In this document: piece after piece, positions 2,741-31,873 of the stretch
Layout: each line of letters begins with the position of its first letter
How positions within the stretch are numbered: the first letter of the stretch is position 1
Assembly (NCBI RefSeq): GCF_011046535.1
Contig: NZ_CP049257.1
Coordinates: 2,852,001-2,916,000, forward strand
Source of the DNA: Nocardioides anomalus
GTDB taxonomy: Bacteria > Actinomycetota > Actinomycetes > Propionibacteriales > Nocardioidaceae
Length of the DNA: 64,000 nt
Direction: 5' to 3'
Program-made: the position numbers and the translations under genes
The notes under the pieces: generated by a model
Told to the model about the DNA's origin: nothing
What the model saw: only the letters and a program-made list of their open reading frames with translations
Databases searched by the model: none

Positions 2741-2757
2741 GTTAGGGATCTGTAACC
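2741..2757. promoter_or_regulatory. EMC-type 17-bp element between thiolase and epimerase genes
   Basis: The top strand reads GTTAGGGATCTGTAACC (reverse complement GGTTACAGATCCCTAAC). It ends at the base before the first epimerase ATG and lies 53 bp from the thiolase start, so one bound protein could control both genes. It matches the reductase site at 12 of 17 positions and is the weakest of the four sites. Confidence 0.5.
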
Positions 2758-3219
2758 ATGCCGGGCATGACCTCGGACACGTCAGCCCTCGACCCCGGTC
2801 TCTTCACCGCGATCGACCACGTCGGCATCGCGGTCGCGGACCTCGACGCGGCGATCGGGTTCTACTCCTCGACGTACGGCATGCGCCTGGTGCACCAGGA
2901 GGTCAACGAGGAGCAGGGCGTGCGCGAGGCGATGATGGCGGTCGGCGACTCGGGCTCCTGCATCCAGCTCCTGGCCCCGCTGAGCGAGGAGTCCACGATC
3001 GCCAAGTTCCTGGACCGCTCCGGCCCGGGCATCCAGCAGATGGCCTACCGCGTCACCGACGTCGACGCCGTCAGCGCGACCCTGCGCGAGCGCGGCCTGC
3101 GGCTGCTGTACGACGAGCCGCGGCGCGGCACCGCCGGCTCGCGGATCAACTTCGTGCACCCCAAGGACGCCGGCGGCGTCCTGGTCGAGCTCGTCGAGCC
3201 GGCCGCCACCCACCACTGA
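2758..3219 (+). CDS. mce: Methylmalonyl/ethylmalonyl-CoA epimerase
   Basis: A 153-residue vicinal-oxygen-chelate (glyoxalase fold) protein. The first beta-alpha-beta module starts at [13 protein letters not shown] and the second around [14 protein letters not shown]. Metal-ligand candidates are the His in DHVG, the Gln in CIQLLAP, the His in [10 protein letters not shown] and the Glu in VLVELVEP, as in methylmalonyl-CoA epimerases. It interconverts R and S forms of methylmalonyl- and ethylmalonyl-CoA. Two in-frame ATGs (2758 and 2767) are possible; neither has a convincing Shine-Dalgarno sequence. The crotonyl-CoA carboxylase/reductase gene follows 54 bp downstream but has its own promoter signal. 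Confidence 0.93.
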
Positions 3220-3249
3220 CGACCAGGTCACATTTCGCTCATCCCGACT

Positions 3250-3266
3250 GTTACTGAAGGGTAACC
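3250..3266. promoter_or_regulatory. EMC-type 17-bp element upstream of crotonyl-CoA carboxylase/reductase
   Basis: The top strand reads GTTACTGAAGGGTAACC, with perfect GTTAC/GTAAC arms around six bases. It overlaps the predicted -10 hexamer TAACCT (3262-3267), which is six bases before the ATG, so a bound protein would block the promoter. It resembles the elements at 2741, 23519 and 31857. Confidence 0.6.
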
Positions 3267-3273
3267 TCCGGCC

Positions 3274-4611
3274 ATGCAGCAGATCCTCGACGCCATCCTC
3301 GCTGGTGACACCGCCCCCGAGGAGTTCGCCCACCTCGACGTGCCGGAGTCCTACCGGGCCGCCCTGGTCCGCAAGGACGAGGTCGACATGTTCGAGGGCA
3401 TGGAGACCAAGGAGAAGGACCCCCGCAAGTCCCTCCACGTGGAGGACGTGCCGGTCCCCGAGCTCGGACCCGGCGAGGCCCTGGTCGCGGTGATGGCGTC
3501 GGCGATCAACTACAACACCGTCTGGACCTCGATCTTCGAGCCGGTCTCGACCTTCGGCTTCCTCGAACGCTACGGCCGGCTCTCCCCCCTCACGAAGCGG
3601 CACGACCTGCCCTACCACGTGGTCGGCTCCGACCTGGCCGGCGTCGTGCTCCGCGTCGGACCCGGCGTGACCAAGTGGAAGCCCGGCCAGGAGGTCGTCG
3701 CCCACTGCCTGAGCGTCGAGCTCGAGGACCACATGGGCCACGACGACACGATGCTCGACCCCCAGCAGCGGATCTGGGGCTTCGAGACCAACTTCGGCGG
3801 CCTCGCCGACGTGGCCCTGGTCAAGGCCAACCAGCTCATGCCCAAGCCCGACCACCTCACCTGGGAGGAGGCCGCCTCCCCCGGCCTGGTCAACTGCACG
3901 GCGTACCGCCAGCTGGTCAGCCACCACGGCGGTCAGATGAAGCAGGGCGACAACGTCCTCATCTGGGGGGCCAGCGGCGGCCTGGGCGGCTTCGCCACGC
4001 AGTACGCCCTCAACGGCGGCGCCACCCCGGTCTGCGTCGTCTCCTCCGAGGACAAGGCCGAGGTCTGCCGCTCCATGGGCGCCGAGCTCGTCATCAACCG
4101 CAACGAGGAGGGCTACCGGTTCTGGAAGGACGAGCGCACCCAGGACCCCAAGGAGTGGAAGCGCTTCGGCGCCCGGATCCGCGAGCTCACCGGCGGCGAG
4201 GACATCGACATCGTCTTCGAGCACCCCGGCCGTGAGACCTTCGGGGCGAGCGTCTACGTCACCCGCAAGGGCGGCACCATCACCACCTGCGCCTCGACCT
4301 CGGGCTACATGCACGAGTACGACAACCGCTACCTGTGGATGAACCTCAAGCGGATCATCTCCAGCCACTTCGCCAACTACCGCGAGTCGTGGGAGGCCAA
4401 CCGGCTGGTGGCCAAGGGCCGGATCCACCCGACCCTGTCCAGGAGCTACCCGTTGACCGAGGTCGGCCAGGCCACCCTCGACGTGCACCAGAACGCCCAC
4501 CAGGGCAAGGTCGGCGTGCTCTGCCTGGCCCCCGAGGAGGGGCTCGGCGTGCGCGACCCGGAGTTCCGGGCCCAGCACGAGGACGCGATCAACCGCTTCC
4601 GCGGGGTCTGA
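3274..4611 (+). CDS. ccrA: Crotonyl-CoA carboxylase/reductase
   Basis: A 445-residue medium-chain dehydrogenase/reductase that reduces crotonyl-CoA with NADPH and adds CO2 to give ethylmalonyl-CoA. The four CO2-binding residues known from the Kitasatospora enzyme fall at the same numbers: Asn81 (NYNTVW), Phe170-Glu171 (WGFETN) and His365 (ISSHFAN). The NADPH-binding turn is WGASGGLGG at 231-239. This separates it from non-carboxylating enoyl reductases. It is the key enzyme of the ethylmalonyl-CoA pathway for C2 assimilation, and it also supplies ethylmalonyl-CoA extender units in some actinobacteria. The ATG lies six bases after TAACCT, suggesting a leaderless mRNA. Confidence 0.96.
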   Translation: MQQILDAILAGDTAPEEFAHLDVPESYRAALVRKDEVDMFEGMETKEKDPRKSLHVEDVPVPELGPGEALVAVMASAINYNTVWTSIFEPVSTFGFLERYGRLSPLTKRHDLPYHVVGSDLAGVVLRVGPGVTKWKPGQEVVAHCLSVELEDHMGHDDTMLDPQQRIWGFETNFGGLADVALVKANQLMPKPDHLTWEEAASPGLVNCTAYRQLVSHHGGQMKQGDNVLIWGASGGLGGFATQYALNGGATPVCVVSSEDKAEVCRSMGAELVINRNEEGYRFWKDERTQDPKEWKRFGARIRELTGGEDIDIVFEHPGRETFGASVYVTRKGGTITTCASTSGYMHEYDNRYLWMNLKRIISSHFANYRESWEANRLVAKGRIHPTLSRSYPLTEVGQATLDVHQNAHQGKVGVLCLAPEEGLGVRDPEFRAQHEDAINRFRGV

Positions 4612-5188
4612 GCCCGGCCAGGGCCAGGTCCAGGCCCGCCTCGAGGTGGCCGGCGTCGCCGGTCGCCATCAGCACCTGGACGCCGCCCTGCACGGTGGCC
4701 ACCAGGGCGCGTGCGGCCGCGGCCGCGTCGACCTCGGGTGCCACCTCCCCCGCGGCCTGCATGGCCTCGACGCCGGTCCGGAGCGCGCCCTCCCACGCCG
4801 ACATCAGGGCGACCACCACGGCGTGCGAGCCCGGCGTCCCGGTGGCGACCTGGGTCATCACGGCGTGCAGGGGGCAGTCCGGTCCCTGCCGCACGTAGCG
4901 CGCCACGACCGCGTCGCGCCAGTCCTGCCACGCCGCCCAGGAGGTCAGGTCCGACAGGTGCGGCTCCTGGTCGCTCAGCACCCGGGCCGCCTCGAGCTCG
5001 GCCACGGCGAGCAGCAGCTCCTCGCGGCCACCGGGGAAGTAGTGGAACAGCTGGCCCTTGCTGGTGCGCGTGCGGGCCAGCACGTCGTCCAGCGTGGTGT
5101 GCACGATGCCCTCGGTCCGCAGCAGCTCGGCCGCACCGCTGACGATCCGCTCCCGGGTCGCCGCGCCCTTGGCACTCAGCCCCACCAC
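4589..5188 (-). CDS. TetR/AcrR family transcriptional regulator
   Basis: A protein of about 199 residues with an N-terminal helix-turn-helix: TRERIVSGAAELLRTEG, then TTLDDVLARTRTSKGQLFHYF, a classic TetR DNA-binding domain. A C-terminal ligand domain contains GPDCPLHAVMTQVA, as in the YcdC/LmrA-like branch. Two adjacent GTG codons (5188, 5185) are the likely starts; upstream in-frame sequence is antisense to the dehydrogenase. It is divergent from an SDR gene with a perfect palindrome between them, so it probably represses both. Its 3' end overlaps the end of ccrA by 23 bp, convergently. Confidence 0.88.
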   Translation of the reverse strand: MVGLSAKGAATRERIVSGAAELLRTEGIVHTTLDDVLARTRTSKGQLFHYFPGGREELLLAVAELEAARVLSDQEPHLSDLTSWAAWQDWRDAVVARYVRQGPDCPLHAVMTQVATGTPGSHAVVVALMSAWEGALRTGVEAMQAAGEVAPEVDAAAAARALVATVQGGVQVLMATGDAGHLEAGLDLALAGLRPRGSG

Positions 5189-5213
5189 GCCGTCGAGCCT
5201 GCCACCCGGATCC

Positions 5214-5229
5214 TGGACTTGGAAGTCCA
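5214..5229. promoter_or_regulatory. Probable TetR operator
   Basis: Perfect 7-2-7 palindrome TGGACTTGGAAGTCCA in the 66-bp gap between the divergent TetR and SDR genes. It contains TTGGAA (5219-5224), which lies exactly 17 bp before TAGCGT (5242-5247), a -10 located seven bases before the SDR ATG. The operator therefore covers the SDR -35 element. Confidence 0.65.
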
Positions 5230-5254
5230 ATTTCTGCTCCCTAGCGTCGCCGGC

Positions 5255-6016
5255 ATGGACACCCGACTGCAGGGCCGGACCGCACTGGTCACCGGCGCCA
5301 CCAGCAACATCGGGCGAGCGATCGCCCTCGCCTACGGCGCAGCCGGCGCCCACGTCGCGGTGAGCGGGCGCGACCCCGAGCGCGGCGCGGCCGTGATCGC
5401 GCAGGTGCGCGCGGCCGGCGGCCGCGCCGACTTCGTCCCCGCCGACCTCGACGGCAGCCCGGGGCGGTCCCGGGCCCTGGCCGACGCCGCGGTGGCCGCG
5501 CTCGGCCGCGTGGACGTGCTCGTCAACAACGCCGGGGTCTACCCGGCCGGCACCACCCTGACCACCGACGAGGAGACCTTCGACCGGATCTTCGCGGTCA
5601 ACGTCAAGGCGCCGTTCTTCCTCACCGCCGCCCTGGTCCCGGGCATGACCGAGCGCGGCGGCGGCGTGGTGGTCAACATCGGCTCCTGGATCGCGCGCCT
5701 GGGCGTGCCGGGCGGGTCGGCGTACTCCGCCTCGAAGGGGGCGGTGGAGACCCTCACCCGGGCCTGGTCGGCCGAGTTCGGTCCCGGCGGCGTCCGGGTC
5801 AACGCGGTCTCGCCGGGTGTGGTGGCCGACGCGGGCTCGGAGCTCGAGCGGCTGGCGGTCGGCATGATGCGTGGTACGCCGGCCGATGCGGTCGGGCGGC
5901 CCGAGGCGATCGCCGTGGCGGCGGTCTACCTCGCCTCGGACGACGCGGCGTTCGTGCACGGCACGGTGCTCGACGTGGACGGCGGGCGCACCGGCGTGGC
6001 GGTCGTCGCCTCCTGA
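5255..6016 (+). CDS. SDR family NAD(P)-dependent oxidoreductase
   Basis: A 253-residue classical short-chain dehydrogenase. The cofactor motif is TGATSNIG near residue 14, followed by the NNAG motif, the catalytic Ser in NIGSWIA and YSASK with catalytic Tyr and Lys. The C-terminal DVDGG motif is normal. The substrate is unknown. It is divergent from a TetR regulator, with an operator palindrome on its -35 element, so it is probably induced by the TetR ligand. The start is supported by a -10 seven bases upstream, suggesting a leaderless mRNA. Confidence 0.9.
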   Translation: MDTRLQGRTALVTGATSNIGRAIALAYGAAGAHVAVSGRDPERGAAVIAQVRAAGGRADFVPADLDGSPGRSRALADAAVAALGRVDVLVNNAGVYPAGTTLTTDEETFDRIFAVNVKAPFFLTAALVPGMTERGGGVVVNIGSWIARLGVPGGSAYSASKGAVETLTRAWSAEFGPGGVRVNAVSPGVVADAGSELERLAVGMMRGTPADAVGRPEAIAVAAVYLASDDAAFVHGTVLDVDGGRTGVAVVAS

Positions 6017-6120
6017 CCTCCCGCCTCACGCGACCCGCCAGACCGGGTGTGCCAAAGGCGGCCGGATCGTGGAGGATGGGCGGCGTCCGCTCGTCCCCAT
6101 GCGAAGGAGCTCGTCCCCCC

Positions 6121-7539
6121 ATGAGCAACCAGGACCAGGGTCTCTCGATCTTCGACAAGGCGCCGCGCGACCGGGCCACCGGTGACGTCGACGGCGAGAA
6201 GACGCAGGTGATCCCCGCCCTGCCGGCCGACGCCCAGGACGCGCAGGACGCCGAGGAGCTCGACGAGGACGAGGCCGTGGCGGAGGTGGCCGAGACCACG
6301 GACGACGCCGAAGCGGCCGAGGCCGGGGACGAGCAGCTCACGCTCGACGACGCGGCCGACAGCGAGGAGTCCGTGGCCGTGGCGACGCCCGCGTCCGCGC
6401 GGCCCGAGCAGACCCGCCAGGTCCCCAAGCGGCCGGTGTTGCCCCCGCCGCCCAGCGAGACGACGCCGTTCCCCCGCTCGGGCGCCCCGGTCGCCGCGAC
6501 TGCCGCGGCCCCGGCTCCCCAGCCGGCGGCCGCCCCCGTGCCGCCGCCCCCGCCGCTGCCCACGGTGCGCCGCAACGGCTACGACAAGGTCGCGGTGGAC
6601 GCGCGGCTGCGGCAGCTGGCCGGCGAGCAGGCCGACCTCCAGCAGCGCGTCGCCGCCGCGGAGGCCCGCACCGCCTCGCTCGACGCCGAGCTGGCCGAGG
6701 CCCGCCGGCAGGCCGAGGAGGCCTCCACCCCGTCGTACGCCGGACTGGGCGGCCGCGCCAGCGCGATGCTGCGCCTGGCCGAGGAGGAGGCCGCGGAGAT
6801 GCGCGCGGTGGCCCAGCGCGACGCCGACGAGATCCGCGAGCAGGCGGCCCGCGACGCCCAGGCCATCAAGGCCGACGCCTCGCGCGAGGCCGAGGAGCTG
6901 CGGGTCGTGCACACCAAGGAGCTCGACGACCACCGCTCCCGGGTGACGACCGAGGCCGAGCAGGAGCGCCAGCACGCCAAGGCCCAGGCCTCCGACCTGG
7001 TGGCCAGCGCCCAGCGCGAGGCCGACCAGCTCCGCCTGGCCGCCCAGCAGGAGACCACCGAGCTGCGCACCGGCACCCAGCGCGAGGCCGAGCAGGCCAA
7101 GGCCGCCGTGGACCGCGAGGTCCAGGAGGCCCGCCGCATGCTCGCCGTCGACAAGGAGCGCCTGGCGCGCGAGGCCGCCGAGCACCACACCAGCGCCCTG
7201 GCCGAGACCAAGCGGCTGGTCGAGGAGGCCGAGGCCCGGGCCACCCAGGCCGAGGAGCGCGCCCGCGAGGCGGTCACCCAGGCCACCGAGGCCCGCAGCG
7301 CCGCGCAGAGCGAGGCCGAGGGGATCCTGGTCCGCGCCCGCCGCGAGGCCGAGCAGATCGTCAAGGCCGCCACCACGCAGGCCGAGTCGGTCACCGCGAG
7401 CGGTGACGCCGAGCTCGAGCGCCAGGTCGCCGGACTGCGCGCCGAGGTCGACCGGCTGGCCAAGCGCCGCGACGCGATCACCGCCCAGCTGGCCTCCCTG
7501 CGCGACGTGGTGGCCGGCTTCGGCGACGACGACGCCTGA
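6121..7539 (+). CDS. DivIVA/Scy-like coiled-coil protein
   Basis: About 472 residues from ATG 6121, which has AAGGAG upstream; an earlier in-frame ATG at 6049 lacks this. Residues ~1-110 are acidic, residues ~110-150 are Pro/Ala-rich, and the remainder is an almost uninterrupted coiled coil of Ala, Glu, Arg and Gln heptads. The GYDKVAVDARLRQLA stretch resembles the N-terminal part of DivIVA domains, and GLGGRASAMLRLAEEEA is typical of actinobacterial DivIVA/Scy-like polarity proteins. A cytoskeletal or polar-growth scaffold role is inferred. It shares little with its neighbours. Confidence 0.75.
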   Translation: MSNQDQGLSIFDKAPRDRATGDVDGEKTQVIPALPADAQDAQDAEELDEDEAVAEVAETTDDAEAAEAGDEQLTLDDAADSEESVAVATPASARPEQTRQVPKRPVLPPPPSETTPFPRSGAPVAATAAAPAPQPAAAPVPPPPPLPTVRRNGYDKVAVDARLRQLAGEQADLQQRVAAAEARTASLDAELAEARRQAEEASTPSYAGLGGRASAMLRLAEEEAAEMRAVAQRDADEIREQAARDAQAIKADASREAEELRVVHTKELDDHRSRVTTEAEQERQHAKAQASDLVASAQREADQLRLAAQQETTELRTGTQREAEQAKAAVDREVQEARRMLAVDKERLAREAAEHHTSALAETKRLVEEAEARATQAEERAREAVTQATEARSAAQSEAEGILVRARREAEQIVKAATTQAESVTASGDAELERQVAGLRAEVDRLAKRRDAITAQLASLRDVVAGFGDDDA

Positions 7540-7586
7540 GCCGGGCCACGACCGGGCACTGGCAGGCGTGAGCAAGGACGTGGCGG

Positions 7587-8720
7587 ATGCGCCCGCGGAG
7601 GCCCGGGACCCGGGGACCGACGACGAGGGTGTCGAGGACCCCCCCGGAGGGCGACGCCGACGACTCGCGGCTCGGCCAGCCCGGCCCACCGCTGGACCAC
7701 CGTGCCCCGTTCTACATGGGCTTCGTCGGAGCCGTGGGCGCGCTGGTGGCCTACTGGCTGCTGACCAACATCGCCGCGATCGGCTCCACGCTGATCCTGA
7801 TCGTGGTCTCGCTGTTCCTGGCCGCAGGGCTCAACCCGGCCGTCACCTTCTTCGAGCGCCGTGGGCTGCGCCGCAGCTACGCCGTGGTCGTGGTCATCGC
7901 GGCCGTGCTGGTCGCGGTGGTCCTGTTCCTGGTCGCGATCGTCCCGGTCATCACCGACCAGGTGAAGTCGCTGACCGACCAGGCGCCGACGTGGTTCGAC
8001 CAGCTCCAGCAGAACCAGACGGTCAAGGACCTCGACGACGAGTACGACGTCATCGACAAGGCCCGCGACTACGTCACCGGCGGTGACTTCGTCAGCACCC
8101 TGTTCGGGGGCGCGATCGGCATCGGGCTGCGCGTGCTCAGCGCGCTGTTCAACGCCTTCATCATCCTGGTGCTGACGCTCTACTTCCTGTCCTCGCTCGA
8201 CACCACCAAGAAGGCGCTCTACCGGCTCGCCCCGGCCAGCCGCCGCGACCGGGTGAGCCGGCTGGGCAACCGGATCGTCGAGAGCGTCGGCGGCTACGTC
8301 TCCGGCGCGTTCATCGTCGCGATGTGCGCCGGGCTGTCGTCGCTGGTCTTCCTGTTCGCCGTGGGCCTGGGCAAGTACGCCGTCGCGCTGGCCTTCGTCG
8401 TGGCGCTGCTCGACGTGATCCCGATGATCGGAGCGACCATCGGCGCCGTCGTGGTCACCGCGATCGCGTTCGCCGAGGACCCCAAGACCGGCATCCTCTG
8501 CATCGTCTTCTACGTCGTCTACCAGCAGGTGGAGAACTACCTCATCTACCCACGGGTGATGTCGAAGTCGGTCGACGTGCCCGGCGCGGTCACCGTCATC
8601 GCCGCGCTCGTCGGTGCGGCGCTGCTCGGGGTCGTCGGCGCGCTGCTGGCCATCCCCACCGCGGCCGCCGTCCTCATGCTCACGCGCGAGGTGTTCGTGC
8701 GCCGCCAGGACGCCCGGTAG
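7587..8720 (+). CDS. AI-2E family transporter
   Basis: About 377 residues with roughly eight membrane segments. A hydrophobic pair follows FYMGFVGAVGALVAYWLL, a soluble loop spans DQVKSLTDQAPTWFDQ to DYVTGG, and the conserved C-terminal block is ALLDVIPMIGATIGAVVV, YQQVENYLIYPRVM and GALLAIPTAA, diagnostic of PF01594. Family members export autoinducer-2-like molecules or ions; the substrate here is unknown. The start is uncertain. ATG 7587 has AAGGA eight bases upstream, but GTG 7629 or ATG 7716 are also possible. A seven-C run at 7639-7645 separates this frame from an acidic N terminus in another frame starting at GTG 7568. Confidence 0.85.
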   Translation: MRPRRPGTRGPTTRVSRTPPEGDADDSRLGQPGPPLDHRAPFYMGFVGAVGALVAYWLLTNIAAIGSTLILIVVSLFLAAGLNPAVTFFERRGLRRSYAVVVVIAAVLVAVVLFLVAIVPVITDQVKSLTDQAPTWFDQLQQNQTVKDLDDEYDVIDKARDYVTGGDFVSTLFGGAIGIGLRVLSALFNAFIILVLTLYFLSSLDTTKKALYRLAPASRRDRVSRLGNRIVESVGGYVSGAFIVAMCAGLSSLVFLFAVGLGKYAVALAFVVALLDVIPMIGATIGAVVVTAIAFAEDPKTGILCIVFYVVYQQVENYLIYPRVMSKSVDVPGAVTVIAALVGAALLGVVGALLAIPTAAAVLMLTREVFVRRQDAR

Positions 8721-8742
8721 CAGGGGCCCGCGGGTAGCCGGG

Positions 8743-9198
8743 GTGGACGCGACCGTCGCCGTCGCCGCGCTCGGCTTCCTCTCGACCCTCCTCGCGGCGT
8801 ACCTCACCGCGCGCTGGCAGACCCGCGGCCTGGTCGAGACCGAGCTGGTGACCGCCAAGGTCGCGGCGTACGGCGACTGCGCGGAGGCCCTCTACGAGCT
8901 CGAGCGCGTCTCCTTCGACCGCGCGCTGCACAAGCCGACCGGCACGCCGGAGGACGACGCCGCCCGCGCCCAGGTGGTCTACGAGCACAACTCCAAGGCC
9001 CGTGCCGCCATCGGGCGGCTGGCCATCCTCAGTGACCGGGCCGACCTGTGGCAGCGGCTCACCGACGTGCGGCGCGAGATCCGCACCATGCACGACCGGC
9101 CCGAGGAGCTGCGCGGCGAGCACGACCGGCTGATGGCCGTGCTCGACGGGATCCTGAGCGACGTGCGCGACCGCTTCGACGACTTCCACGGCCGCTAG
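8743..9198 (+). CDS. Hypothetical membrane-anchored helical protein
   Basis: About 151 residues from GTG 8743. One N-terminal membrane segment (VAVAALGFLSTLLAAYLTARW) is followed by a charged, mostly helical cytoplasmic domain with no Cys. I do not recognise a named family. It follows the AI-2E transporter gene by 22 bp and precedes a DUF1905 gene by 11 bp, so the three may be co-transcribed. Codon use matches its neighbours. Confidence 0.7.
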   Translation: MDATVAVAALGFLSTLLAAYLTARWQTRGLVETELVTAKVAAYGDCAEALYELERVSFDRALHKPTGTPEDDAARAQVVYEHNSKARAAIGRLAILSDRADLWQRLTDVRREIRTMHDRPEELRGEHDRLMAVLDGILSDVRDRFDDFHGR

Positions 9199-9209
9199 GG
9201 AGCCCGCCC

Positions 9210-9497: not shown

Positions 9498-9570
9498 GCC
9501 GGACGTGACCTGCGCGACCCCCCGGGTCGGGACACCCCCTGGGGCGGTCCGACGCCGAGGGGGGGCAGGT

Positions 9571-9576
9571 TAGGGT
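9571..9576 (+). promoter_or_regulatory. -10 element for the STAS gene (leaderless)
   Basis: TAGGGT lies exactly six bases before the GTG start at 9583, and no Shine-Dalgarno sequence is present. This is the usual arrangement of actinobacterial leaderless promoters. Confidence 0.45.
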
Positions 9577-9582
9577 GCCGCT

Positions 9583-9909: not shown

Positions 9910-9922
9910 GCCGGCGTGGGCC

Positions 9923-10750: not shown

Positions 10751-10753
10751 CGC

Positions 10754-21706: not shown

Positions 21707-23506
21707 TCAGCGGCTGGAGTAGTCGCGGAAGCCGCGCTTGGTCTTGCGGCCGAGGTAGCCGGCTGTGACCAGGTGCTCCAGCAGCGGTGCCGGCGCGAAG
21801 CCGGGCTCGCGGAACTCCAGGTAGAGCTCGCGCTGGATGGCCAGCGACACGTCGTTCCCGACCACGTCGAGCAGCTCGAAGGGCCCCATGGGCAGCGCGC
21901 AGCCCTGCTTCATCGCGGTGTCGATGTCGTCGGCGGTGGCGTAGTGCGCCTCGAGCATCCGGACCGCGTCGTTGAGGTAGGGGAACAGCAGCGCGTTGAC
22001 GATGAAGCCGGCCCGGTCGGTGCACGAGACCGGGACCTTGCCGATCGCCTCGCACAGCGCCCGGGTCGTCTCGGTGACGTCCTCGTCGGTCATCACCGTG
22101 GAGACCACCTCGACCAGCTTCATCACGGGCGCGGGGTTGAAGAAGTGCATGCCCACGACGTGCTGCGGCCGCTCGGTGGCCCGGGCCAGCTCGATGACCG
22201 GCAGGCTGGACGTCGTCGTCGCGAGGATCGCGCCCGGCTTGCAGATGTCGTCGAGGTTGCCGAACAGGGTCCGCTTGATCGCGAGGTCCTCGGCGATCGC
22301 CTCGACCACGAGGTCGACGTCCTGGAGGTCGTCCAGGCTGAGGGTGCCGGTGACCCGCGCGAGCAGCGCGGTCTTGTCGTCCTCGGTGGCCCGGCCGCGC
22401 CCGATCTGCTTGTCGAGGTTCCTGTTGATCTGGGCGACCACGCCGTCGACCTTGTCCTGGCTGCGCCCGACGTACCGCACGTCGTACCCGGCCTTGGCGA
22501 AGACCTCGACGATCCCGCCGGCCATGGTGCCGGTGCCGACCACCCCGACCCGCTTGACGCCGTGCCGCAGCTGCGGCCGGTCGTCGGCGCCCGGGGTGAG
22601 GTCGTCGACGACCGTGCGCGGGCTGTCCGGGCCGTCGTAGGTGTAGAAGCCGCGGCCGGTCTTGCGACCGAGCATGCCCGCGGTGACCATCTGCTTGAGG
22701 ATCGGGCTGGGCGCGTGGAGCCGGTCGCGGCCCTGGCGGTACATCGTCTCGAGGATCTCATAAGCCGTGTCCAGCCCGATCAGGTCGAGCAGCTGGAGCG
22801 GGCCCATCGGGTAGCCGCAGCCGAAGCGCATGGCGGCGTCGATGTCCTCACGGGAGGCGTACTTGCCCTCGAACATCGACACCGCGTGGTTGAGGTAGCC
22901 GAACAGCAGCGTGTTGGCGATGAAGCCGGCCTTGTCGCCGCACACCACCGGGTGCTTGCCGACCTGGCGGACCAGCGCGGTGACGTCGTCGAGCACGCGC
23001 GGCTCGGTGACGACCGTGCGCACGATCTCGACCAGGTCCTGCACCGGCGCCGGGTTGAAGAAGTGGACGCCCACCACGCGGCCCGGGTGGGCGTTGGCCG
23101 TGGAGATCTCGGTGACGCTGAGGCTCGAGGTGTTGGTGGCCAGCACCGCCTCGGGCGCCACGACCGCCTCGAGCTCGGCGAAGATGGCCTTCTTGGTCTC
23201 CAGCGACTCGACCACCGCCTCGACCACGAAGTCCGCCTCGCGCAGGTCCTCGAGGTGGGTGCTGAAGCTGATCCGGCCGAGCAGCTCGGCCTGCTCCTCC
23301 TCGCTGAGCTTGCCGCGAGAGACCGCCCGGGCCGTGGAGTTCTCCAGGTGCTGGCGCCCGCGGGCCAGGCCCTCGTCGTTCAGCTCGACGCCGACGACCG
23401 AGAAGCCGTTGCGCGCGAACACCTCGGCGATCCCGGCCCCCATGGTCCCGAGGCCGACGACGCCGATGGTCTGGAAGGTCCGGGTGTCCGAGGCCTGCTC
23501 CGTCAT
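21707..23506 (-). CDS. Tandem-duplicated 3-hydroxybutyryl-CoA dehydrogenase
   Basis: A 599-residue protein made of two complete 3-hydroxyacyl-CoA dehydrogenase units of ~290 residues. Unit 1 begins GVVGLGTMGAGIAEVF and has GVHFFNPAPVQDLVE with the catalytic His, DKAGFIANTLL and MGPLQLLDLIGLD. Unit 2 repeats these as GVVGTGTMAGGIVEVF, GMHFFNPAPVMKLVE, DRAGFIVNALL and MGPFELLDVVGND. Both keep the catalytic His; unit 2 has Ala for one Gly of its nucleotide loop. It likely interconverts acetoacetyl-CoA and 3-hydroxybutyryl-CoA. TATGGT (23513-23518) lies six bases before the ATG, and the EMC element follows it. Confidence 0.92.
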   Translation of the reverse strand: MTEQASDTRTFQTIGVVGLGTMGAGIAEVFARNGFSVVGVELNDEGLARGRQHLENSTARAVSRGKLSEEEQAELLGRISFSTHLEDLREADFVVEAVVESLETKKAIFAELEAVVAPEAVLATNTSSLSVTEISTANAHPGRVVGVHFFNPAPVQDLVEIVRTVVTEPRVLDDVTALVRQVGKHPVVCGDKAGFIANTLLFGYLNHAVSMFEGKYASREDIDAAMRFGCGYPMGPLQLLDLIGLDTAYEILETMYRQGRDRLHAPSPILKQMVTAGMLGRKTGRGFYTYDGPDSPRTVVDDLTPGADDRPQLRHGVKRVGVVGTGTMAGGIVEVFAKAGYDVRYVGRSQDKVDGVVAQINRNLDKQIGRGRATEDDKTALLARVTGTLSLDDLQDVDLVVEAIAEDLAIKRTLFGNLDDICKPGAILATTTSSLPVIELARATERPQHVVGMHFFNPAPVMKLVEVVSTVMTDEDVTETTRALCEAIGKVPVSCTDRAGFIVNALLFPYLNDAVRMLEAHYATADDIDTAMKQGCALPMGPFELLDVVGNDVSLAIQRELYLEFREPGFAPAPLLEHLVTAGYLGRKTKRGFRDYSSR

Positions 23507-23518: not shown

Positions 23519-23535
23519 GTGACCGACGAGTAACA
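23519..23535. promoter_or_regulatory. EMC-type 17-bp element upstream of the dehydrogenase
   Basis: The bottom strand reads TGTTACTCGTCGGTCAC. It directly abuts the predicted -10 TATGGT (23513-23518) of the dehydrogenase gene and so covers the -10/-35 spacer. It matches the mutase-gene element (31857-31873) at 15 of 17 positions. Confidence 0.6.
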
Positions 23536-24861: not shown

Positions 24862-24872
24862 ATTCGCCCCCC

Positions 24873-25556: not shown

Positions 25557-25560
25557 GCCG

Positions 25561-26094
25561 TCAGCGGTCCTGGGCATCGAGCCAGGCGCGCGCCGCCGCC
25601 CGTGGGTCGGGCCGGCGGTCGAAGCGTCGCCGGGCGACCTTGCCGAGGCTCTCGACGGCACACGCCATCGTGTCGCCGTCGGTGCCGTCGTCCCGGACGA
25701 GCGCGGCCAGAGCGGGTACGGCCTTGCGGCTCCCCAGGGCGCCGAGCGCCAGCACGATCGCGTCGGTCGACTCGTGGTCGGCCTGCCGCGGCAACGCCGC
25801 GACGAGCCCGTCGACGAACGTCGGGTCGGCGTGCCCCAGCCAGGCGAGGACGCCGGCGGCGTCCGCCACGGAGTCCGGGTCCCGACTGGCCAGCATCGAT
25901 CCGAGGAACGGCAGGGACTCCCTCCCTCGGGCGATGAGCCCCCACGAGGCCGTGGCCCGCGCACGGAAGTCGCCGTCGCGAAGAGCGTCGAGGTGCTGCT
26001 GGTGGTACGACGCAGCGGGATCCGTGAGCTGCGTCAGGTCCGGGACCCCGCGGGAGTTCTCAGGGCGGTCGGCCCGCCGACTCCAGCGCGACAC
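25561..26094 (-). CDS. HEAT-repeat domain protein
   Basis: About 177 residues built of short helical repeats (DGDFRARATASWGLIARGRESLP, DSVADAAGVLAWLGHADPT, DAIVLALGALGSRKAVPAL, TMACAVESLGKVAR), a HEAT/armadillo-like solenoid used for protein-protein contacts. The function is unknown. GTG 26094 is chosen because TAGGCT (26102-26107) lies seven bases upstream; the frame is open further but would be antisense to the DUF952 gene. It is convergent with nucS, 4 bp apart. Confidence 0.72.
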   Translation of the reverse strand: MSRWSRRADRPENSRGVPDLTQLTDPAASYHQQHLDALRDGDFRARATASWGLIARGRESLPFLGSMLASRDPDSVADAAGVLAWLGHADPTFVDGLVAALPRQADHESTDAIVLALGALGSRKAVPALAALVRDDGTDGDTMACAVESLGKVARRRFDRRPDPRAAARAWLDAQDR

Positions 26095-26129
26095 ACGACG
26101 CAGCCTAGGCCGCCTGCCACGATGACCCC

Positions 26130-26444
26130 GTGCTGATCTACCACCTGGCCACCCAGTCGGACTGGGACGAGGCCCAGCGCACCGGCGCCTACACCACCAG
26201 CACCCGCGGCGTGAGCCTCGAGCAGGAGGGCTTCCTGCACGCCAGCCGCGCGGACCAGTGGGAGTTCGTGCGCGAGCGCTACTACGCCGACGTCGAGGAG
26301 CCGCTGCTGCTCCTCGAGATCGACACCGACCTCCTCGACGTCCCGTGGCGCGAGGACCCGGTCGGCGACGACACGTTCCCGCACGTCTACGGCCCACTCC
26401 ACCCGAGCGCGGTCACCCACGCGAGGCTGCTCAGCGGCAGCTGA
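26130..26444 (+). CDS. DUF952 domain-containing protein
   Basis: A 104-residue protein. LIYHLATQSDWDEAQRTGAY opens, GFLHASRADQWEFV follows and FPHVYGPLHPSAVTHAR closes, the pattern of DUF952, whose fold resembles ADP-ribosyl-binding proteins; function unknown. The GTG start is six bases after CACGAT. Its 3' end overlaps the end of the convergent sulfatase gene by 14 bp. Confidence 0.9.
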   Translation: MLIYHLATQSDWDEAQRTGAYTTSTRGVSLEQEGFLHASRADQWEFVRERYYADVEEPLLLLEIDTDLLDVPWREDPVGDDTFPHVYGPLHPSAVTHARLLSGS

Positions 26445-28065
26445 CGCCCGAGCAGTCGACGAGCCGGTCGAGGGCGGCGCGGAGGGTGTCCACGGCCTGG
26501 CGGCCCCGCGGCGACATGGCGCGGTACGACGCCTCGTCGTCCGCCAGCAGGTTGTCGAGCTCGTACGGGTCCTTGTTGAGGTCGTAGAGCTCCTCGTGCG
26601 GCAGGTGCGTGTAGCGGATCAGCTTGTAGCGCCCGTTGGTCACACCCGTGAAGTCGTTGAGCTCGCTGGAGCGCGAGGACGGCAGCAGGGTCTCGGGGAC
26701 CTCCTCGATGCCGCCGGTGGGCGTGGCGTTGTCGGGCGTGAGCGCCCGACCCAGGAGGTAGTAGCGACGAGCCAACGGCGGCCCGCCGCGCAGCCGGTCG
26801 AGCAGCGAGAGCCCGTCGACGGTGGCGGGGGCGGTGGCGCCGGTCATGGCCGCGATCGTGGGCGCGATGTCGATGTTGCCGCTCACGTCGTCGTACGTCG
26901 ACCCGGCGGGGATGCCGGGCCCGCGCACGTAGAACGGCACGCGGACGTCGGTCTGGAACTGGGTGTACTTGCCGATCTCGCGACGGTGGTTGCCCATGTG
27001 GTAGCCGTTGTCGCTGGTGAAGATGATGTAGGTGTCGTCCAGCGCGTCCTGGTCGGCCAGCGCCTGGACCAGCCGGGCCACGTTCTGGTCGAGGACCTGC
27101 ACCGAGCGCACCCGCTTGCGGAACGTCTCATCGATGAGCGCCTCGTCCGCGGCGGTCAGCGGGCGGCGCTGGCGGGTGAGCCCGAACTTGTCGGAGGTGT
27201 CGCCCTCGTCGAAGTCCGGCGTGCGCGGGTAGGTCACGTCGGCGAAGGAGCCGGCCAGCGAGTCGGGGAAGGCGTACGGCGTGTGCGGCGAGTACGACGC
27301 GTAGTAGAGGAACTGCCCGCCGTCGGCGAAGTCGAAGCCGTCGGTGGCCCCGTTGACCAGCGACAGCGCGCGCTCGCCGAGGAACGAGTCGAGGTAGTCG
27401 GTGTGGAACTGCGGGTCGATCTGCCCGTCGACGTTGAGCTTGTAGTGGTCCTGTGCGTAGGCGTTGCCCTGCACCGGCGAGGCCCACGACGCCCAGCCCG
27501 GCGGCACGTAGGCGCGGAGGGCGTCCTTCTCCTCGTCGCTCAGGTGGGCTCCGGGGTGGAAGGGGTACTCGTTGAAGTACTTGCCCAGCAGCGCGTTGCG
27601 GTAGCCCGCCTGCTGCAGCCAGACCGGCAGGTCGTCGTCCTGCTCGGTCTGCTTCCACCGCTCGTAGCCGCCCTCGGGCCACACGTTGCCGATCACGCCG
27701 TGGTTGTGCGCGTAGAGCCCGGACAGGATCGACGCCCGTGACGGGCAGCAGCTGGACTGCTCGACGTAGAAGTTCGTCAGCTCCGCGCCCTGGTCCTTGA
27801 TCAGCCGGTTGACGTTGGGCATGTACGGCATCAGCGACGTGTCGAGGTCGTCGGTCAGGATGACGACGACGTTCGGCTTCGGCTGCGGCGCCGGGCTCGG
27901 CGCGGAGGGCGTGCCGGGCTCGTCGGGGCGGTCCGCGCCGGAGGCCAGCGAGGCGTCCTCGGGGCTCCGCTCGGTGGCGGAGCCGGCGTCGTGCAGCCCC
28001 AGGCCGGCCAGCGCGAAGACCGCGCACACCGCCACCACGAGGGCGACCAGACGGGACCGAGACAC
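26431..28065 (-). CDS. Secreted sulfatase (N-acetylglucosamine-6-sulfatase-like)
   Basis: A 544-residue type I sulfatase. The signal segment is LVALVVAVCAVFALAGLGL. A low-complexity Pro/Ser linker (~residues 30-64) leads to NVVVILTDDLD with metal-binding Asp residues. SCCPSRASIL (Cys106-x-Pro-Ser-Arg110) carries the cysteine converted to formylglycine by FGE or anSME. IIFTSDNGYHMGNHR and GIPAGSTYDDVSGNIDIAPT are typical late motifs. It likely removes sulfate from glycans outside the cell. No FGE gene is in the window. GTG start with TACCCT seven bases upstream. Confidence 0.92.
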   Translation of the reverse strand: MSRSRLVALVVAVCAVFALAGLGLHDAGSATERSPEDASLASGADRPDEPGTPSAPSPAPQPKPNVVVILTDDLDTSLMPYMPNVNRLIKDQGAELTNFYVEQSSCCPSRASILSGLYAHNHGVIGNVWPEGGYERWKQTEQDDDLPVWLQQAGYRNALLGKYFNEYPFHPGAHLSDEEKDALRAYVPPGWASWASPVQGNAYAQDHYKLNVDGQIDPQFHTDYLDSFLGERALSLVNGATDGFDFADGGQFLYYASYSPHTPYAFPDSLAGSFADVTYPRTPDFDEGDTSDKFGLTRQRRPLTAADEALIDETFRKRVRSVQVLDQNVARLVQALADQDALDDTYIIFTSDNGYHMGNHRREIGKYTQFQTDVRVPFYVRGPGIPAGSTYDDVSGNIDIAPTIAAMTGATAPATVDGLSLLDRLRGGPPLARRYYLLGRALTPDNATPTGGIEEVPETLLPSSRSSELNDFTGVTNGRYKLIRYTHLPHEELYDLNKDPYELDNLLADDEASYRAMSPRGRQAVDTLRAALDRLVDCSGVSCR

Positions 28066-28102
28066 CCGGCTGAGGGTACCGGCGCCGCCGGGGCCGCCCC
28101 AA

Positions 28103-29026
28103 TCAGGCCAGGAGCCCCGCGACCTCGTCCGCGCAGCCCCAGCTGAGGGTCACGCCGGCCCCGCCGTGCCCGTAGCAGTGCACCACGTCGCCGACCCGCT
28201 CCAAGCGCACCTCGGGCCGGCCCGGACGCAGCCCGACCTTGTGCCCGAGCACCTCGGCGCCGGCCAGCTCGGGCACCAGCCGCAGCGCCCGTCGCAGGAT
28301 CGCCGAGGCCACCTCCGGCGAGGGCGTGCGGCTCCACTCCCCCTCGACGTCGGTGCCGCCGACGACCACGTCGCGCGAGCGCGGCACGACGTACGTCGGG
28401 CTGCCGGCGGTCCCGGGGTCGAGCCACCAGCGCGCGAGGCCCACCTGCTCGACCAGCACCACCTGGCCCTGGACCGGGTGCACCGAGGGGTCGGCGGCCA
28501 GGTGCTTGGCGCCGATCCCGGCGCAGTCCACGACCGCGTCCGCGCCACCCGCACCGGCGGCGGGCAGGGCCTGGAGGTTGAGCCGGGTCACCGAGCCGCC
28601 CAGCTCCAGCACCCGCGCGGCCAGCCACGCCAGGTAGACCGGCATCTCCACCACCGGCGCCGTGAAGCTCCACCCGCCGTCGTACCCGGCCGGCACCTCG
28701 AGCGTCTCGCGCAGGTCCGGCACCGCCGCGGCCCACCACGGCCGGCTCCCGCGCGAGGCGACGACCTCGGTGCCCACCTGCATCCGCACGCCGGACCGCG
28801 GGTCCGCGGCCAGGTCGGCGAACGCGGCGTACGTCGTGGTGCACCAGCCGAGCACGCGGTCCTCGGGCCAGGCGCGGTAGGGGTACCAGATCGCCGCGGC
28901 CACCGCCGACGTCGTCTCCCGCGGCAGGTCGCGGGCCAGCACGTCGACGCGGTGCCCGGCCTCGAGCAGCCGCACCGCGCACGACAGCCCGAGGACGCCG
29001 GCGCCGACGACCACCACCCTGCCCAC
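28103..29026 (-). CDS. FAD-dependent D-amino-acid oxidase-like oxidoreductase
   Basis: A 307-residue protein with the FAD-binding VVVGAGVLGLSCAVRLLEAGH motif at its N terminus. Later it has VNCAG-like VVDCAGIGAKHLA and YVVPRSRDVVVGGTDVEGEWSR. It ends with HCYGHGGAGVTLSWGCADEVAGLL, the C-terminal FAD site of D-amino-acid/D-aspartate oxidases. It probably oxidises D-amino acids to 2-oxoacids with H2O2. GTG start, TAGGTT (29034-29039) seven bases upstream. Confidence 0.9.
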   Translation of the reverse strand: MGRVVVVGAGVLGLSCAVRLLEAGHRVDVLARDLPRETTSAVAAAIWYPYRAWPEDRVLGWCTTTYAAFADLAADPRSGVRMQVGTEVVASRGSRPWWAAAVPDLRETLEVPAGYDGGWSFTAPVVEMPVYLAWLAARVLELGGSVTRLNLQALPAAGAGGADAVVDCAGIGAKHLAADPSVHPVQGQVVLVEQVGLARWWLDPGTAGSPTYVVPRSRDVVVGGTDVEGEWSRTPSPEVASAILRRALRLVPELAGAEVLGHKVGLRPGRPEVRLERVGDVVHCYGHGGAGVTLSWGCADEVAGLLA

Positions 29027-29041
29027 GGGCAGGAACCTACG

Positions 29042-29566
29042 TCAGGCGCCGGCCACCCGGGGAGCGGTCGGGTCGGCGGACTCGCCGCCGGCCTCGCGGG
29101 CGACGTACTCCTCGATGTCCTCGACGTCGTCCTGGTTGCGGGTGACGACCGCGAGCAGGTCGGTCATGGTGGCGACCTCCTCGACCTGCTCCTTGATGAA
29201 CCACTGCAGGAACTGCTCGCTGGCGAAGTCGAACTCCTCGCGCGCGATCCGCAGCAGCCCGTTGATCTGCTCGGTGACCCGCTTCTCCTGCTCCAGGGCC
29301 AGCGCGACGGGGGCGACGACGTCGGGGAACAGCGACTGCGGCGACTCCACGCCGGGGATGGTCACCGGCGCGTCGGTGTCCAGGAGGTACTGCACCATCA
29401 TCATCGCGTGGTCGCGCTCCTCGAGCGCCTGACCGTAGAAGAACGCCGCCATCCGCGGCATCGTCTCGGCGTCGTAGTGGACGGCGCAGGCGAGGTACTG
29501 GTTGTGCGCGGCCAGCTCGTTGCCGATCTGGGCGTTGAGCGCCTCGATGAAGCGTTGCGCGGGCAC
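29042..29566 (-). CDS. Ferritin
   Basis: A 174-residue ferritin-like four-helix protein. The ferroxidase ligands are Glu17 in QIGNELAAHNQYLA, Glu50 and His53 in ALEERDHAMMM and a Glu in LALEQEKRVTEQINGLL. There is no Met suggesting a haem ligand pattern of bacterioferritin, so it is likely a non-haem ferritin close to mycobacterial BfrB. It stores iron as a ferric mineral. GTG start with AGGAG well spaced. It lies 22 bp downstream of a Cys-rich small gene whose promoter has an IdeR box. Confidence 0.92.
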   Translation of the reverse strand: MPAQRFIEALNAQIGNELAAHNQYLACAVHYDAETMPRMAAFFYGQALEERDHAMMMVQYLLDTDAPVTIPGVESPQSLFPDVVAPVALALEQEKRVTEQINGLLRIAREEFDFASEQFLQWFIKEQVEEVATMTDLLAVVTRNQDDVEDIEEYVAREAGGESADPTAPRVAGA

Positions 29567-29588
29567 GGGAGTCTCCTGGGGTCGGGGC

Positions 29589-29777
29589 TCAGGCGGCCTT
29601 GCGCAGCCGCTTCTTGGTCACCTTCTTGCCGTCGACGCGCACGAGCTTGCGTCGCTTGACGGTATACCCCGAGGGCAGGCTGCCCTCCTTGAGCATGCGC
29701 AGGGGGCACCGGCTGCACTTGGTTCTCGACTCGCAGCACTCCGTCTTGGGGAGCTTCTGCACCTTGGCCTTGCCCAC
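29589..29777 (-). CDS. Small Cys-rich basic protein, candidate ferritin partner
   Basis: A 62-residue protein with Cys14, Cys15, Cys21 and Cys24 (ECCESRTKCSRCPLR) and a strongly basic C-terminal half (VKRRKLVRVDGKKVTKKRLRKAA in part). Four closely spaced Cys could hold an iron-sulfur cluster or zinc. I do not recognise a named function. It precedes the ferritin gene by 22 bp in the same direction. The GTG start lies seven bases after a TAGGCT -10 that is part of an iron box. By size, Cys content, charge and position it resembles bacterioferritin-associated ferredoxin (Bfd), though the Cys spacing differs. Confidence 0.78.
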   Translation of the reverse strand: MGKAKVQKLPKTECCESRTKCSRCPLRMLKEGSLPSGYTVKRRKLVRVDGKKVTKKRLRKAA

Positions 29778-29796
29778 GAAGGGCAGCCTAACCTAA
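29778..29796 (-). promoter_or_regulatory. DtxR/IdeR-type iron box
   Basis: The bottom strand reads TTAGGTTAGGCTGCCCTTC. It matches the established DtxR/IdeR consensus (TTAGGTTAGGCTAACCTAA) at 15 of 19 positions, including the first 12 in a row. It contains the predicted -10 TAGGCT and ends at the base before the GTG start, so bound Fe-IdeR should block transcription of the Cys-rich and ferritin genes. Confidence 0.78.
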
Positions 29797-29803
29797 AGAC
29801 CAG

Positions 29804-31837
29804 TCAGACCGGCAGCCCGTTCGCCTTCCGGATCACGTCGACGATGCCGCCCATGATCTCGGTCAGCCCGAAGTCCTTCGGCGTGTAGACCGCGGCCACC
29901 CCGGCCTCGGTCAGCCGGCGGGCGTCGGAGTCCGGGATGATCCCGCCGACGATGACGGGCACGTCGAGCCCCTGCTCGCGCAACCCGTCCAGCACCGCCG
30001 GCACCAGCTCCATGTGCGAGCCGGACAGGATGGACAGCCCGACGCAGTGCACGTCCTCGGCCACCGCGGCCGCCACGATCTGCTCCGGGGTGAGCCGGAT
30101 GCCCTGGTAGACGACCTCGAAGCCGGCGTCGCGGGCGCGCACGGCCACCTGCTCGGCGCCGTTCGAGTGGCCGTCGAGCCCGGGCTTGCCGACCAGCAGC
30201 CGGAGCCGGCCGCCGAGCTCCTCGCCGGTCTCCTTGACCTTGCGGCGCACCGCGGCGAGCTCCTCGCCGGCCTCGCCCACCGACGAGGCGACACCCACTG
30301 CGCCGGAGACGCCGGTCGGGGCGCGGAACTCGCCGAAGACCTCGCGCAGGGTGCCGGCCCACTCCCCCGTCGTCGCCCCGGCCCGCGCCGCGGCGAGGGT
30401 GGCGGTCATCAGGTTGGTCTCGGTCTTGGCGTCCTCGGCCAGCTGCCTCAGCGCCGCCTCGACCTCGGCCGGGTCGCGCTGGGCCTTCCACGCCTCCACG
30501 CTGGCCAGCGCCGAGCGCTCGGCCTCGGGGTCGGCGGCCTGGATCGCCGTGTCGAGGTCGGCGGTCAGCGGCGAGGGCTCGGTGGTCTCGAAGCGGTTGA
30601 CGCCGACGATGATCTCCTCGCCGGACTCGATGCGCGCGCGCCGGGCGGCGTGCGAGCTGACCAGCGCCTCCTTCATGTAGCCGGACTCGACCGCGGCGAT
30701 CGCGCCGCCCAGGGCCTGGACCCGGTCGATCTCCTCCCGGGCGCTGGCCACCAGCTCGGCGACCTTGGCCTCGACGACGGTGGAGCCGTCGAACAGGTCG
30801 TCGTACTCCAGCAGGTCGGACTCGAAGGCCAGCACCTGCTGCAGCCGCAGCGACCACTGCTGGTCCCACGGCCGGGGCAGCCCGAGGGCCTCGTTCCACG
30901 CCGGCAGCTGCACGGCGCGCGCCCGCGCGTTCTTGGACAGCGTCACGCCGAGCATCTCGAGCACGATGCGCTGGACGTTGTTCTCGGGCTGCGCCTCGGT
31001 CAGGCCGAGGGAGTTGACCTGCACGCCGTACCGGAAGCGGCGCATCTTGGGGTCCTGCACGCCGTACCGCTCACGGGTGATCTGGTCCCACAGCTCGACG
31101 AAGGCGCGCATCTTGCACAGCTCCTCGACGAACCGCACGCCGGCGTTGACGAAGAACGAGATCCGGCCGACGACCTTGTCGAAGTCCTCGTCGGAGACCT
31201 GGCCGGAGCCCTTGACCGTGTCGAGGACCGCGATCGCGGTGCACAGCGCGTAGGCCAGCTCCTGGGTCGGCGTGGCCCCGGCCTCCTGCAGGTGGTAGCT
31301 GCAGATGTTGATCGGGTTCCACTTCGGGATCTGGTGGACGGTGTAGGAGATGACGTCGCTGATCAGCCGCAACGAGTGCTCGGGCGGGAAGACGTAGGTC
31401 CCGCGCGAGAGGTACTCCTTGATGATGTCGTTCTGGGTCGTCCCGGCCAGCTGGGCCGCGACCTCCTCCGGCGACAGGTCCGGGTTCTGCTCCTCGGCGG
31501 CGACCTGGTAGAGCGCCAGCAGCCACATGGCCGGGGCGTTGATGGTCATCGAGGTGTTCATCTCGACGAGCGGGATGTCGGCGAACAGCTTGCGCATCTC
31601 ACCCAGGTGCGGCACCGGCACGCCGACCTTGCCGACCTCACCGCGGGCCAGCGGCGAGTCCGGGTCGTAGCCGGTCTGCGTGGGCAGGTCGAAGGCCACC
31701 GACAGGCCGGTCTGACCCTTGGCCAGGTTGCCGCGGTACAGCGCGTTGGACGCCTCCGCGGTCGAGTGCCCGGCGTAGGTCCGCATCACCCACGGCCGGT
31801 CCTTGGTGGGCCGGGTGGCCCGGTCCTGGTCGCTCAT
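29804..31837 (-). CDS. meaA: Ethylmalonyl-CoA mutase
   Basis: A 677-residue adenosylcobalamin-dependent acyl-CoA mutase in one chain. The N-terminal substrate barrel starts MRTYAGHSTAEASNALYR and has GLSVAFDLPTQTGYDPD. The C-terminal B12 domain has the DxHxxG motif as GLDGHSNGAEQ, with lower ligand His557. The SNGAEQ form and the ~680-residue length fit ethylmalonyl-CoA mutase (MeaA/Ecm), not methylmalonyl-CoA mutase. It converts ethylmalonyl-CoA to methylsuccinyl-CoA. TACCCT (31844-31849) is six bases before the ATG, and the EMC element lies just upstream. Confidence 0.93.
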   Translation of the reverse strand: MSDQDRATRPTKDRPWVMRTYAGHSTAEASNALYRGNLAKGQTGLSVAFDLPTQTGYDPDSPLARGEVGKVGVPVPHLGEMRKLFADIPLVEMNTSMTINAPAMWLLALYQVAAEEQNPDLSPEEVAAQLAGTTQNDIIKEYLSRGTYVFPPEHSLRLISDVISYTVHQIPKWNPINICSYHLQEAGATPTQELAYALCTAIAVLDTVKGSGQVSDEDFDKVVGRISFFVNAGVRFVEELCKMRAFVELWDQITRERYGVQDPKMRRFRYGVQVNSLGLTEAQPENNVQRIVLEMLGVTLSKNARARAVQLPAWNEALGLPRPWDQQWSLRLQQVLAFESDLLEYDDLFDGSTVVEAKVAELVASAREEIDRVQALGGAIAAVESGYMKEALVSSHAARRARIESGEEIIVGVNRFETTEPSPLTADLDTAIQAADPEAERSALASVEAWKAQRDPAEVEAALRQLAEDAKTETNLMTATLAAARAGATTGEWAGTLREVFGEFRAPTGVSGAVGVASSVGEAGEELAAVRRKVKETGEELGGRLRLLVGKPGLDGHSNGAEQVAVRARDAGFEVVYQGIRLTPEQIVAAAVAEDVHCVGLSILSGSHMELVPAVLDGLREQGLDVPVIVGGIIPDSDARRLTEAGVAAVYTPKDFGLTEIMGGIVDVIRKANGLPV

Positions 31838-31856
31838 CCCCCGAGGGTAGGGCGGT

Positions 31857-31873
31857 GGTTACTCGTCAGTCAC
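31857..31873. promoter_or_regulatory. EMC-type 17-bp element upstream of ethylmalonyl-CoA mutase
   Basis: The top strand reads GGTTACTCGTCAGTCAC. It lies 8-24 bp upstream of the predicted -10 of the mutase gene, over the spacer/-35 region. It matches the reductase element (3250-3266) at 14 of 17 and the dehydrogenase element at 15 of 17. Confidence 0.6.

Follow-up and report, generated by a model that had tools for sequence, protein, structure and literature searches.

Genes assigned to the ethylmalonyl-CoA (EMC) pathway are scattered over a 64,000-nucleotide stretch of the Nocardioides anomalus chromosome (contig NZ_CP049257.1, positions 2,852,001 to 2,916,000), which we refer to as the window. 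They comprise a thiolase gene and a divergent gene read as an epimerase, ccr (crotonyl-CoA carboxylase/reductase), hbd (3-hydroxyacyl-CoA dehydrogenase), and a gene read as ecm (ethylmalonyl-CoA mutase) (Table 1). A preliminary description of this DNA had claimed four related 17-mers in promoter or intergenic regions of these genes, with 12 to 15 of 17 positions identical among the ccr, hbd, and ecm copies. We recovered all four there, and the three pairwise identities were 12, 14, and 15 of 17; the 17-mer at 2741 shared 12, 10, and 11 of 17 positions with the other three. The common form of the four sites is a 16-bp inverted repeat, GTTAC-YSRYSR-GTAAC, present as a single dyad and not as two near-identical boxes with an 18-bp spacer.

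Table 1. Genes and putative operator dyads of the window, and the FasR ortholog encoded outside it
Feature	Position	Strand or reading	Remarks
Thiolase gene	1492..2688	-	Pfam PF00108/PF02803
Glyoxalase-fold gene, read as methylmalonyl/ethylmalonyl-CoA epimerase	2758..3219	+	Pfam PF13669; name from context; later ATG start possible
ccr, crotonyl-CoA carboxylase/reductase	3274..4611	+	Pfam ADH domains
Two-domain 3-hydroxyacyl-CoA dehydrogenase gene (hbd)	21707..23506	-	Pfam PF02737/PF00725; start set at ATG after the putative operator
B12-dependent mutase gene, read as ethylmalonyl-CoA mutase (ecm)	29804..31837	-	Pfam PF01642/PF02310
Weak operator-like dyad GTTAGGGATCTGTAAC	2741-2756	+ reading	Between thiolase and epimerase genes; 13.7 bits
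Putative ccr operator dyad GTTACTGAAGGGTAAC	3250-3265	+ reading	Overlaps -10-like TAACCT; 22.4 bits
Putative hbd operator dyad GTGACCGACGAGTAAC	23519-23534	+ reading; reverse, GTTACTCGTCGGTCAC	Abuts TATGGT; 20.4 bits
Putative ecm operator dyad GTTACTCGTCAGTCAC	31858-31873	+ reading	Upstream of TACCCT; 21.4 bits
FasR ortholog gene	3056136 of the genome, ~140 kb outside the window		TetR family

We scanned the window with a matrix built from 14 sites of other actinobacterial families, with no window sequence included. The four best-scoring positions were exactly these four sites, with the ccr, hbd, and ecm sites strong, and the fifth-best position reached 8.6 bits; this test, although strong, is not fully independent or blind, because the 14 sites were gathered by means of a Nocardioides-derived consensus. 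At a threshold of at least 16 bits, the window held 3 sites, compared with a Markov mean of 0.04 (maximum of 1 among 300 windows), and at a threshold of at least 13 bits it held 4 sites, compared with a mean of 0.14 (maximum, 2). A threshold of at least 10 bits also gave 4 sites, compared with a mean of 0.92, but the Markov maximum was likewise 4, so this cut by itself fails to separate the window sites from chance. For the pattern GTTACNNNNNNGTNAC with up to one mismatch, the window contained 11 strand-matches, compared with a mean of 3.1 and a maximum of 8 in 100 shuffles.

The repressor-like placement at or near -10 elements that had been described was borne out at ccr, hbd, and ecm (Table 1). 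The window ccr site runs into its hexamer, with the ATG 6 bases further, from which we infer leaderless transcription of ccr. Of 55 ccr sites, 53 have a TANNNT hexamer whose first base falls exactly on site offset 12, so at this gene the -10 element and the right half-site share the same DNA. In the window copies at hbd and ecm, the -10-like hexamer is not part of the dyad. As read from the DNA, a position over or near the -10 element is the geometry of a repressor. A gene for a MeaB-type mutase chaperone (546-1508, minus strand) lies downstream of the thiolase gene with the same orientation and overlaps the end of that gene, and it may therefore share the 2741 promoter.

We then considered the whole genome (5.12 Mb, a single contig). 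With up to one mismatch, TTACYSRNSRGTMA had 32 + 35 matches, compared with 6 + 10 for the reversed control; a looser pattern, with 291 places per strand compared with 93 for its control, was too loose for use. Perfect matches occurred at 8 places, 3 of which are the ccr, hbd, and ecm sites. We fetched 45 of the 48 places outside the window and called genes around them with a crude GC-based caller. Twenty-three were intergenic, mostly less than 100 nt from a start, and 22 were inside genes; many of the one-mismatch matches are probably due to chance. Twenty proteins downstream of sites were scanned, and by reading, nine belonged to lipid or acyl-CoA metabolism: a FadD11-like ligase, a FabG4-like reductase and a FadA2-like thiolase with one common site, two acyl-CoA dehydrogenases, an MlaF-like transporter ATPase, a LipQ-like esterase, an SDR fusion, and a DUF4442 protein. 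The other proteins scanned (LCP, permease, AllH-type, LuxR, LysR, ArsA-type, primase, solute-binding, beta-helix, PHP, and LLM oxidoreductase) had no clear lipid link and may be chance matches. The names FadE5, EtfD, ChoD, AceE, FabG4, and FadA2, some of them taken from model names, stand here and below for functions that we presume. The preliminary description had proposed one regulon for C2 assimilation. An operator-like palindrome common to the scattered EMC genes agrees with this, but the regulon looks wider than C2 assimilation, with predicted beta-oxidation and lipid-uptake genes carrying the site as well; it resembles a fatty-acid catabolism regulon that includes the EMC genes.

Conservation upstream of orthologs had been set beforehand as the check that could refute the shared element, and we found it at ccr, ecm, hbd, and the thiolase/epimerase region. 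The ccr gene was present in 29 of 39 relatives and outgroups, its closest named relative being that of N. halotolerans (92% identical), and ecm was matched in 31 of 31 genus genomes. Without mismatch, TTACYSRNSRGTAA occurred in 51 of 59 genus genomes and the control in 2. The other-family matrix gave at least 16 bits upstream of ccr in 17 of 29 loci, compared with 0 expected (29 of 30 loci were scored, the locus with a split gene being dropped). At a threshold of at least 10 bits, the ccr site was found in 52 of 59 named Nocardioidaceae entries and in 3 of 4 Aeromicrobium-type entries. A matrix restricted to ccr sites, again with a threshold of at least 10 bits, placed sites upstream of ecm in 24 of 30 relatives (0.28 expected; 30 of 31 matches, one being without a locus) and of hbd in 11 of 22 (0.23 expected; 22 of 23 matches, a partial second copy being dropped). 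The divergent thiolase/epimerase region reached 10 bits in 18 of 47 relatives (0.50 expected; the 47 of 80 loci in which the divergent pair was found), and the N. halotolerans site shows the same unusual GTTAG half as the 2741 site. Shuffle controls leave shared ancestry within the genus in place; the class-wide fasR and fas results given below are independent of that.

Further genes in relatives also carried sites. Two relatives had them at a mesaconyl-CoA hydratase gene (PF19315) and at a nearby acyl-CoA dehydrogenase gene, perhaps for methylsuccinyl-CoA dehydrogenase, and transhydrogenase and succinate dehydrogenase genes had them too. One genome has a perfect palindrome at the start of a 952-amino-acid gene, read from sequence only as pyruvate dehydrogenase E1. 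In N. hwasunensis, the ccr site is GTTAGTGACCGCTAAC; its letters 5 and 12 are AccR-like, and a switch of regulator is possible there. In one genus genome, ccr is apparently split over two reading frames (2413802-2415137).

The palindrome extends beyond the genus. Without mismatch, RTTACYSRYSRGTAAY occurred in 140 of 296 class genomes and a control match in 9; it was found in 27 of 27 genomes of one family (Mycobacteriaceae by gene content) and in 0 of 13 of another. In distant families, sites precede genes for FadE5-type dehydrogenases, electron transfer flavoprotein, an EtfD-like iron-sulfur protein, and FadA-type thiolases, names that beyond their Pfam domains are our reading. To judge from the catabolic genes behind these sites, the element is a mark of fatty-acid catabolism, and the EMC genes form one branch of it in Nocardioidaceae. 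At FadE5-type, EtfD-like, and some other promoters, two palindromes lie 23 to 26 bp apart, a spacing that suggests paired binding. In a Mycobacteriaceae-type genome, a FasR-like TetR gene is located near FabG4/FadA2/FadE5 genes, with the palindrome present at the FadE5 gene; by M. tuberculosis gene order, this TetR protein is presumably FdmR.

The preliminary description had left the regulator unnamed and had seen no obvious candidate nearby. We propose that the four sites are, with good probability, operators of the TetR-family protein FasR, encoded outside the window. The FasR ortholog of N. anomalus has 6o6p as its best structure match (E value, 4.5e-53; 91 of 194 residues identical), its recognition helix RAGVSKPVLYQHF is identical to that of M. 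tuberculosis FasR, and 4 of 5 acyl-tunnel/spine residues are identical as well (with a numbering offset that we set). The oligonucleotide in the M. tuberculosis FasR-DNA crystal (PMC7382501; this and the papers below are cited from excerpts) contains TACTGGCGAGTT, which agrees at 11 of 12 core positions, a level reached by 38 of 20,000 shuffles. Upstream regions of FAS-I genes contained at least one perfect TACYSRYSRGTA core in 5 of 5 Mycobacteriaceae-type genomes (a raw count without shuffle control), and three of the five hold a segment parallel to the crystal oligonucleotide. Promoters of fasR from many families reached 10 bits or more in 14 of 30 cases (0.35 expected; 30 of 41 matches, 11 being without a locus) and, in a second set that excludes the genomes of the first, in 9 of 21 (0.28 expected); those of FdmR-like genes did so in 3 of 3 cases (0.15 expected). 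All of the palindrome-positive genomes tested (16 of 16) had a FasR.

N. anomalus has 60 TetR genes, and we scored the promoters of 58, leaving out the gene at 1817610 and the one in the window. Apart from fasR, 1 of 57 had a site of at least 10 bits; this sole promoter above 10 bits among the 58 belongs to an AccR-like gene, and its site departs from the palindrome in letters 5 and 12. A TetR gene does adjoin ccr in the window (~4589-5200, minus strand), but we rejected it: it faces an SDR gene (start at 5255, plus strand), with a different dyad between them, TGGACTT-GG-AAGTCCA at 5214-5229. This TetR gene and the SDR gene probably form a local repressor pair. The TetR gene L142, beside the FabG4/FadA2 genes, was at first favored as FdmR by its position and was rejected because, among 30 genomes, it occurs only in the home family and because it is not close to the mycobacterial FdmR-like protein. 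Two others, L136 and L137, were rejected, with best promoter scores of 8.0 and -3.0 bits and a patchy occurrence. No TetR genes near a site were found in a scan of up to 89 further site loci.

Several observations weigh against FasR as the regulator of all four sites. The 2741 site scores far below the other three and carries one GTTAG half, and conservation of the hbd and thiolase/epimerase sites is only partial. At the 10-bit threshold, 0 of 17 Streptomyces ccr loci had the palindrome, even though Streptomyces-type genomes encode a FasR ortholog whose own promoter bears a site. Of 14 genomes that lack the strict palindrome, 12 also encode FasR, so that a FasR gene by itself is no predictor of the regulon. 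Among the fasR promoters scored, about half had no site of at least 10 bits, and the best site at the N. anomalus fasR promoter was poor, at only 8.2 bits, so the palindrome does not accompany fasR in this genome. To our knowledge, a palindrome at its own promoter is not a published defining trait of the FasR regulon. The survey of regulators covered TetR proteins only. At the M. tuberculosis fas promoter, FasR is described as an activator, and such a role is possible for sites further upstream.

Two alternatives appear unlikely to us to a similar degree. In the first, the sites would be bound by a TetR repressor of short-chain acyl-CoA metabolism of the AccR/BkaR/PccD type, since the AccR motif, GTTAA-N6-TTAAC, has the same length, spacing, and architecture (PMC10933834). 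The AccR-like TetR of N. anomalus (L132, by sequence reading) has GTTAGTCGCCGCTAAC at its own promoter, the N. hwasunensis ccr site shows similar letters, and the 2741 site has its GTTAG half. However, the three strong window sites and almost every ccr site have C at position 5 and G at position 12 instead of A/G and T/C; the FasR oligonucleotide has TAC, and fasR promoters show the C/G form. Moreover, Streptomyces has an AccR, yet its ccr loci are without the site. In the second alternative, another regulator, of the TetR or another family, would bind the palindrome in Nocardioides, and FasR would merely have a similar motif. Half-sites are common to related TetR proteins, as this one apparently is to FdmR and FasR, the survey was confined to one protein family, and L142 adjoins site-bearing FabG4/FadA2 genes. 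In contrast, the 57 other TetR promoters yield one site, the AccR-like one, and L142 is confined to the home family, whereas the palindrome is class-wide.

It is very improbable that the repeat is a promoter element, an extended -10 plus an upstream box of a sigma factor, and not an operator. The fixed place of the hexamer at ccr would fit this, but symmetry and conservation extend to the left half and the inner letters, the hexamer is outside the dyad at the window ecm and hbd genes, and several catabolic promoters have two dyads. Chance resemblance of the four 17-mers, for which only the one-mismatch forms within genes speak, can practically be dismissed, since the window, genome, ortholog, and class-level counts all exceed their controls.

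Under the FasR proposal, FasR dimers would occupy GTTAC-N6-GTAAC dyads lying across or directly beside the -10 region and would keep ccr, hbd, ecm, probably the thiolase/epimerase pair, and the beta-oxidation and lipid-uptake promoters closed. Fatty-acid use would raise long-chain acyl-CoA, FasR would be released from DNA, and genes that make acetyl-CoA would be switched on together with genes that assimilate it. We infer FasR binding and repression in Nocardioides from sequence comparison, and the inducer and the sign of regulation from M. tuberculosis FasR biochemistry and the position of the sites. More tentatively, and with somewhat less than even confidence, we suggest that FasR is a master switch of fatty-acid breakdown that dates back to ancestral actinobacteria. 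It would have taken over the EMC pathway too in Nocardioidaceae, where acetyl-CoA assimilation would be gated by long-chain acyl-CoA and not by acetate or EMC intermediates; a duplication in Mycobacteriaceae would have given FasR (synthesis) and FdmR (breakdown), both reading the same palindrome. If these ideas are correct, the Nocardioidaceae EMC pathway gains a named regulator and a testable inducer, and the DNA of the FasR crystal and the orphan lipid motif of mycobacteria become members of one operator family. The lipid-breakdown regulon would then be predictable from sequence alone in many Actinomycetia, and ccr would respond to fatty acids, which is relevant for soil bacteria living on oils and sterols.

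By title or start of the abstract, none of the open-licence papers among the matches listed links FasR with the EMC pathway. Methylobacterium CcrR, known to us from a reference entry only, is reportedly a TetR activator of an EMC gene; compared by title alone, it shares the control of acetyl-CoA assimilation genes. Paracoccus RamB also controls such genes and responds to EMC intermediates, but it has two boxes with an 18-bp spacer, not a single dyad (PMC10370305). The FasR of Streptomyces coelicolor is a MabR-type protein, distinct from the TetR-family FasR (PMC5541348). AccR of Streptomyces avermitilis resembles the system proposed here in its 16-bp dyad, as a TetR repressor, and in its acyl-CoA target genes and differs in the letters at positions 5 and 12. 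An orphan palindrome of the form TAC-N6-GTA has been reported from mycobacteria, upstream of Rv3229c and Rv3230c (desaturase genes) and Rv2524c (PMC3388012). It has the same core and lies at fatty-acid genes; the excerpt of that paper names no regulator and no EMC genes.

FdmR, which is Rv0238 (PMC12403877) and regulates fadE5 (PMC9262360), is described as a repressor of fatty-acid degradation that responds to long-chain acyl-CoA. The likeness lies in the type of target, FadE5-type genes with the palindrome in Mycobacteriaceae-type genomes, in the repressor logic, and in the FasR-like protein; in contrast, EMC genes are not among the targets described in those excerpts. No FdmR ortholog was found among the 58 TetR proteins of N. 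anomalus, whose best match to the FdmR-like protein was FasR (30%). M. tuberculosis FasR, a TetR-family activator of fas-acpS that acyl-CoA of C16 and longer releases from DNA (PMC7382501), is like the N. anomalus protein in its recognition helix, tunnel residues, and bound-DNA core. Its known target is fatty-acid synthesis, whereas the Nocardioides sites are at catabolic and EMC promoters; since these sites lie over the -10 region, repression would be expected there, unlike the activation of fas in M. tuberculosis.

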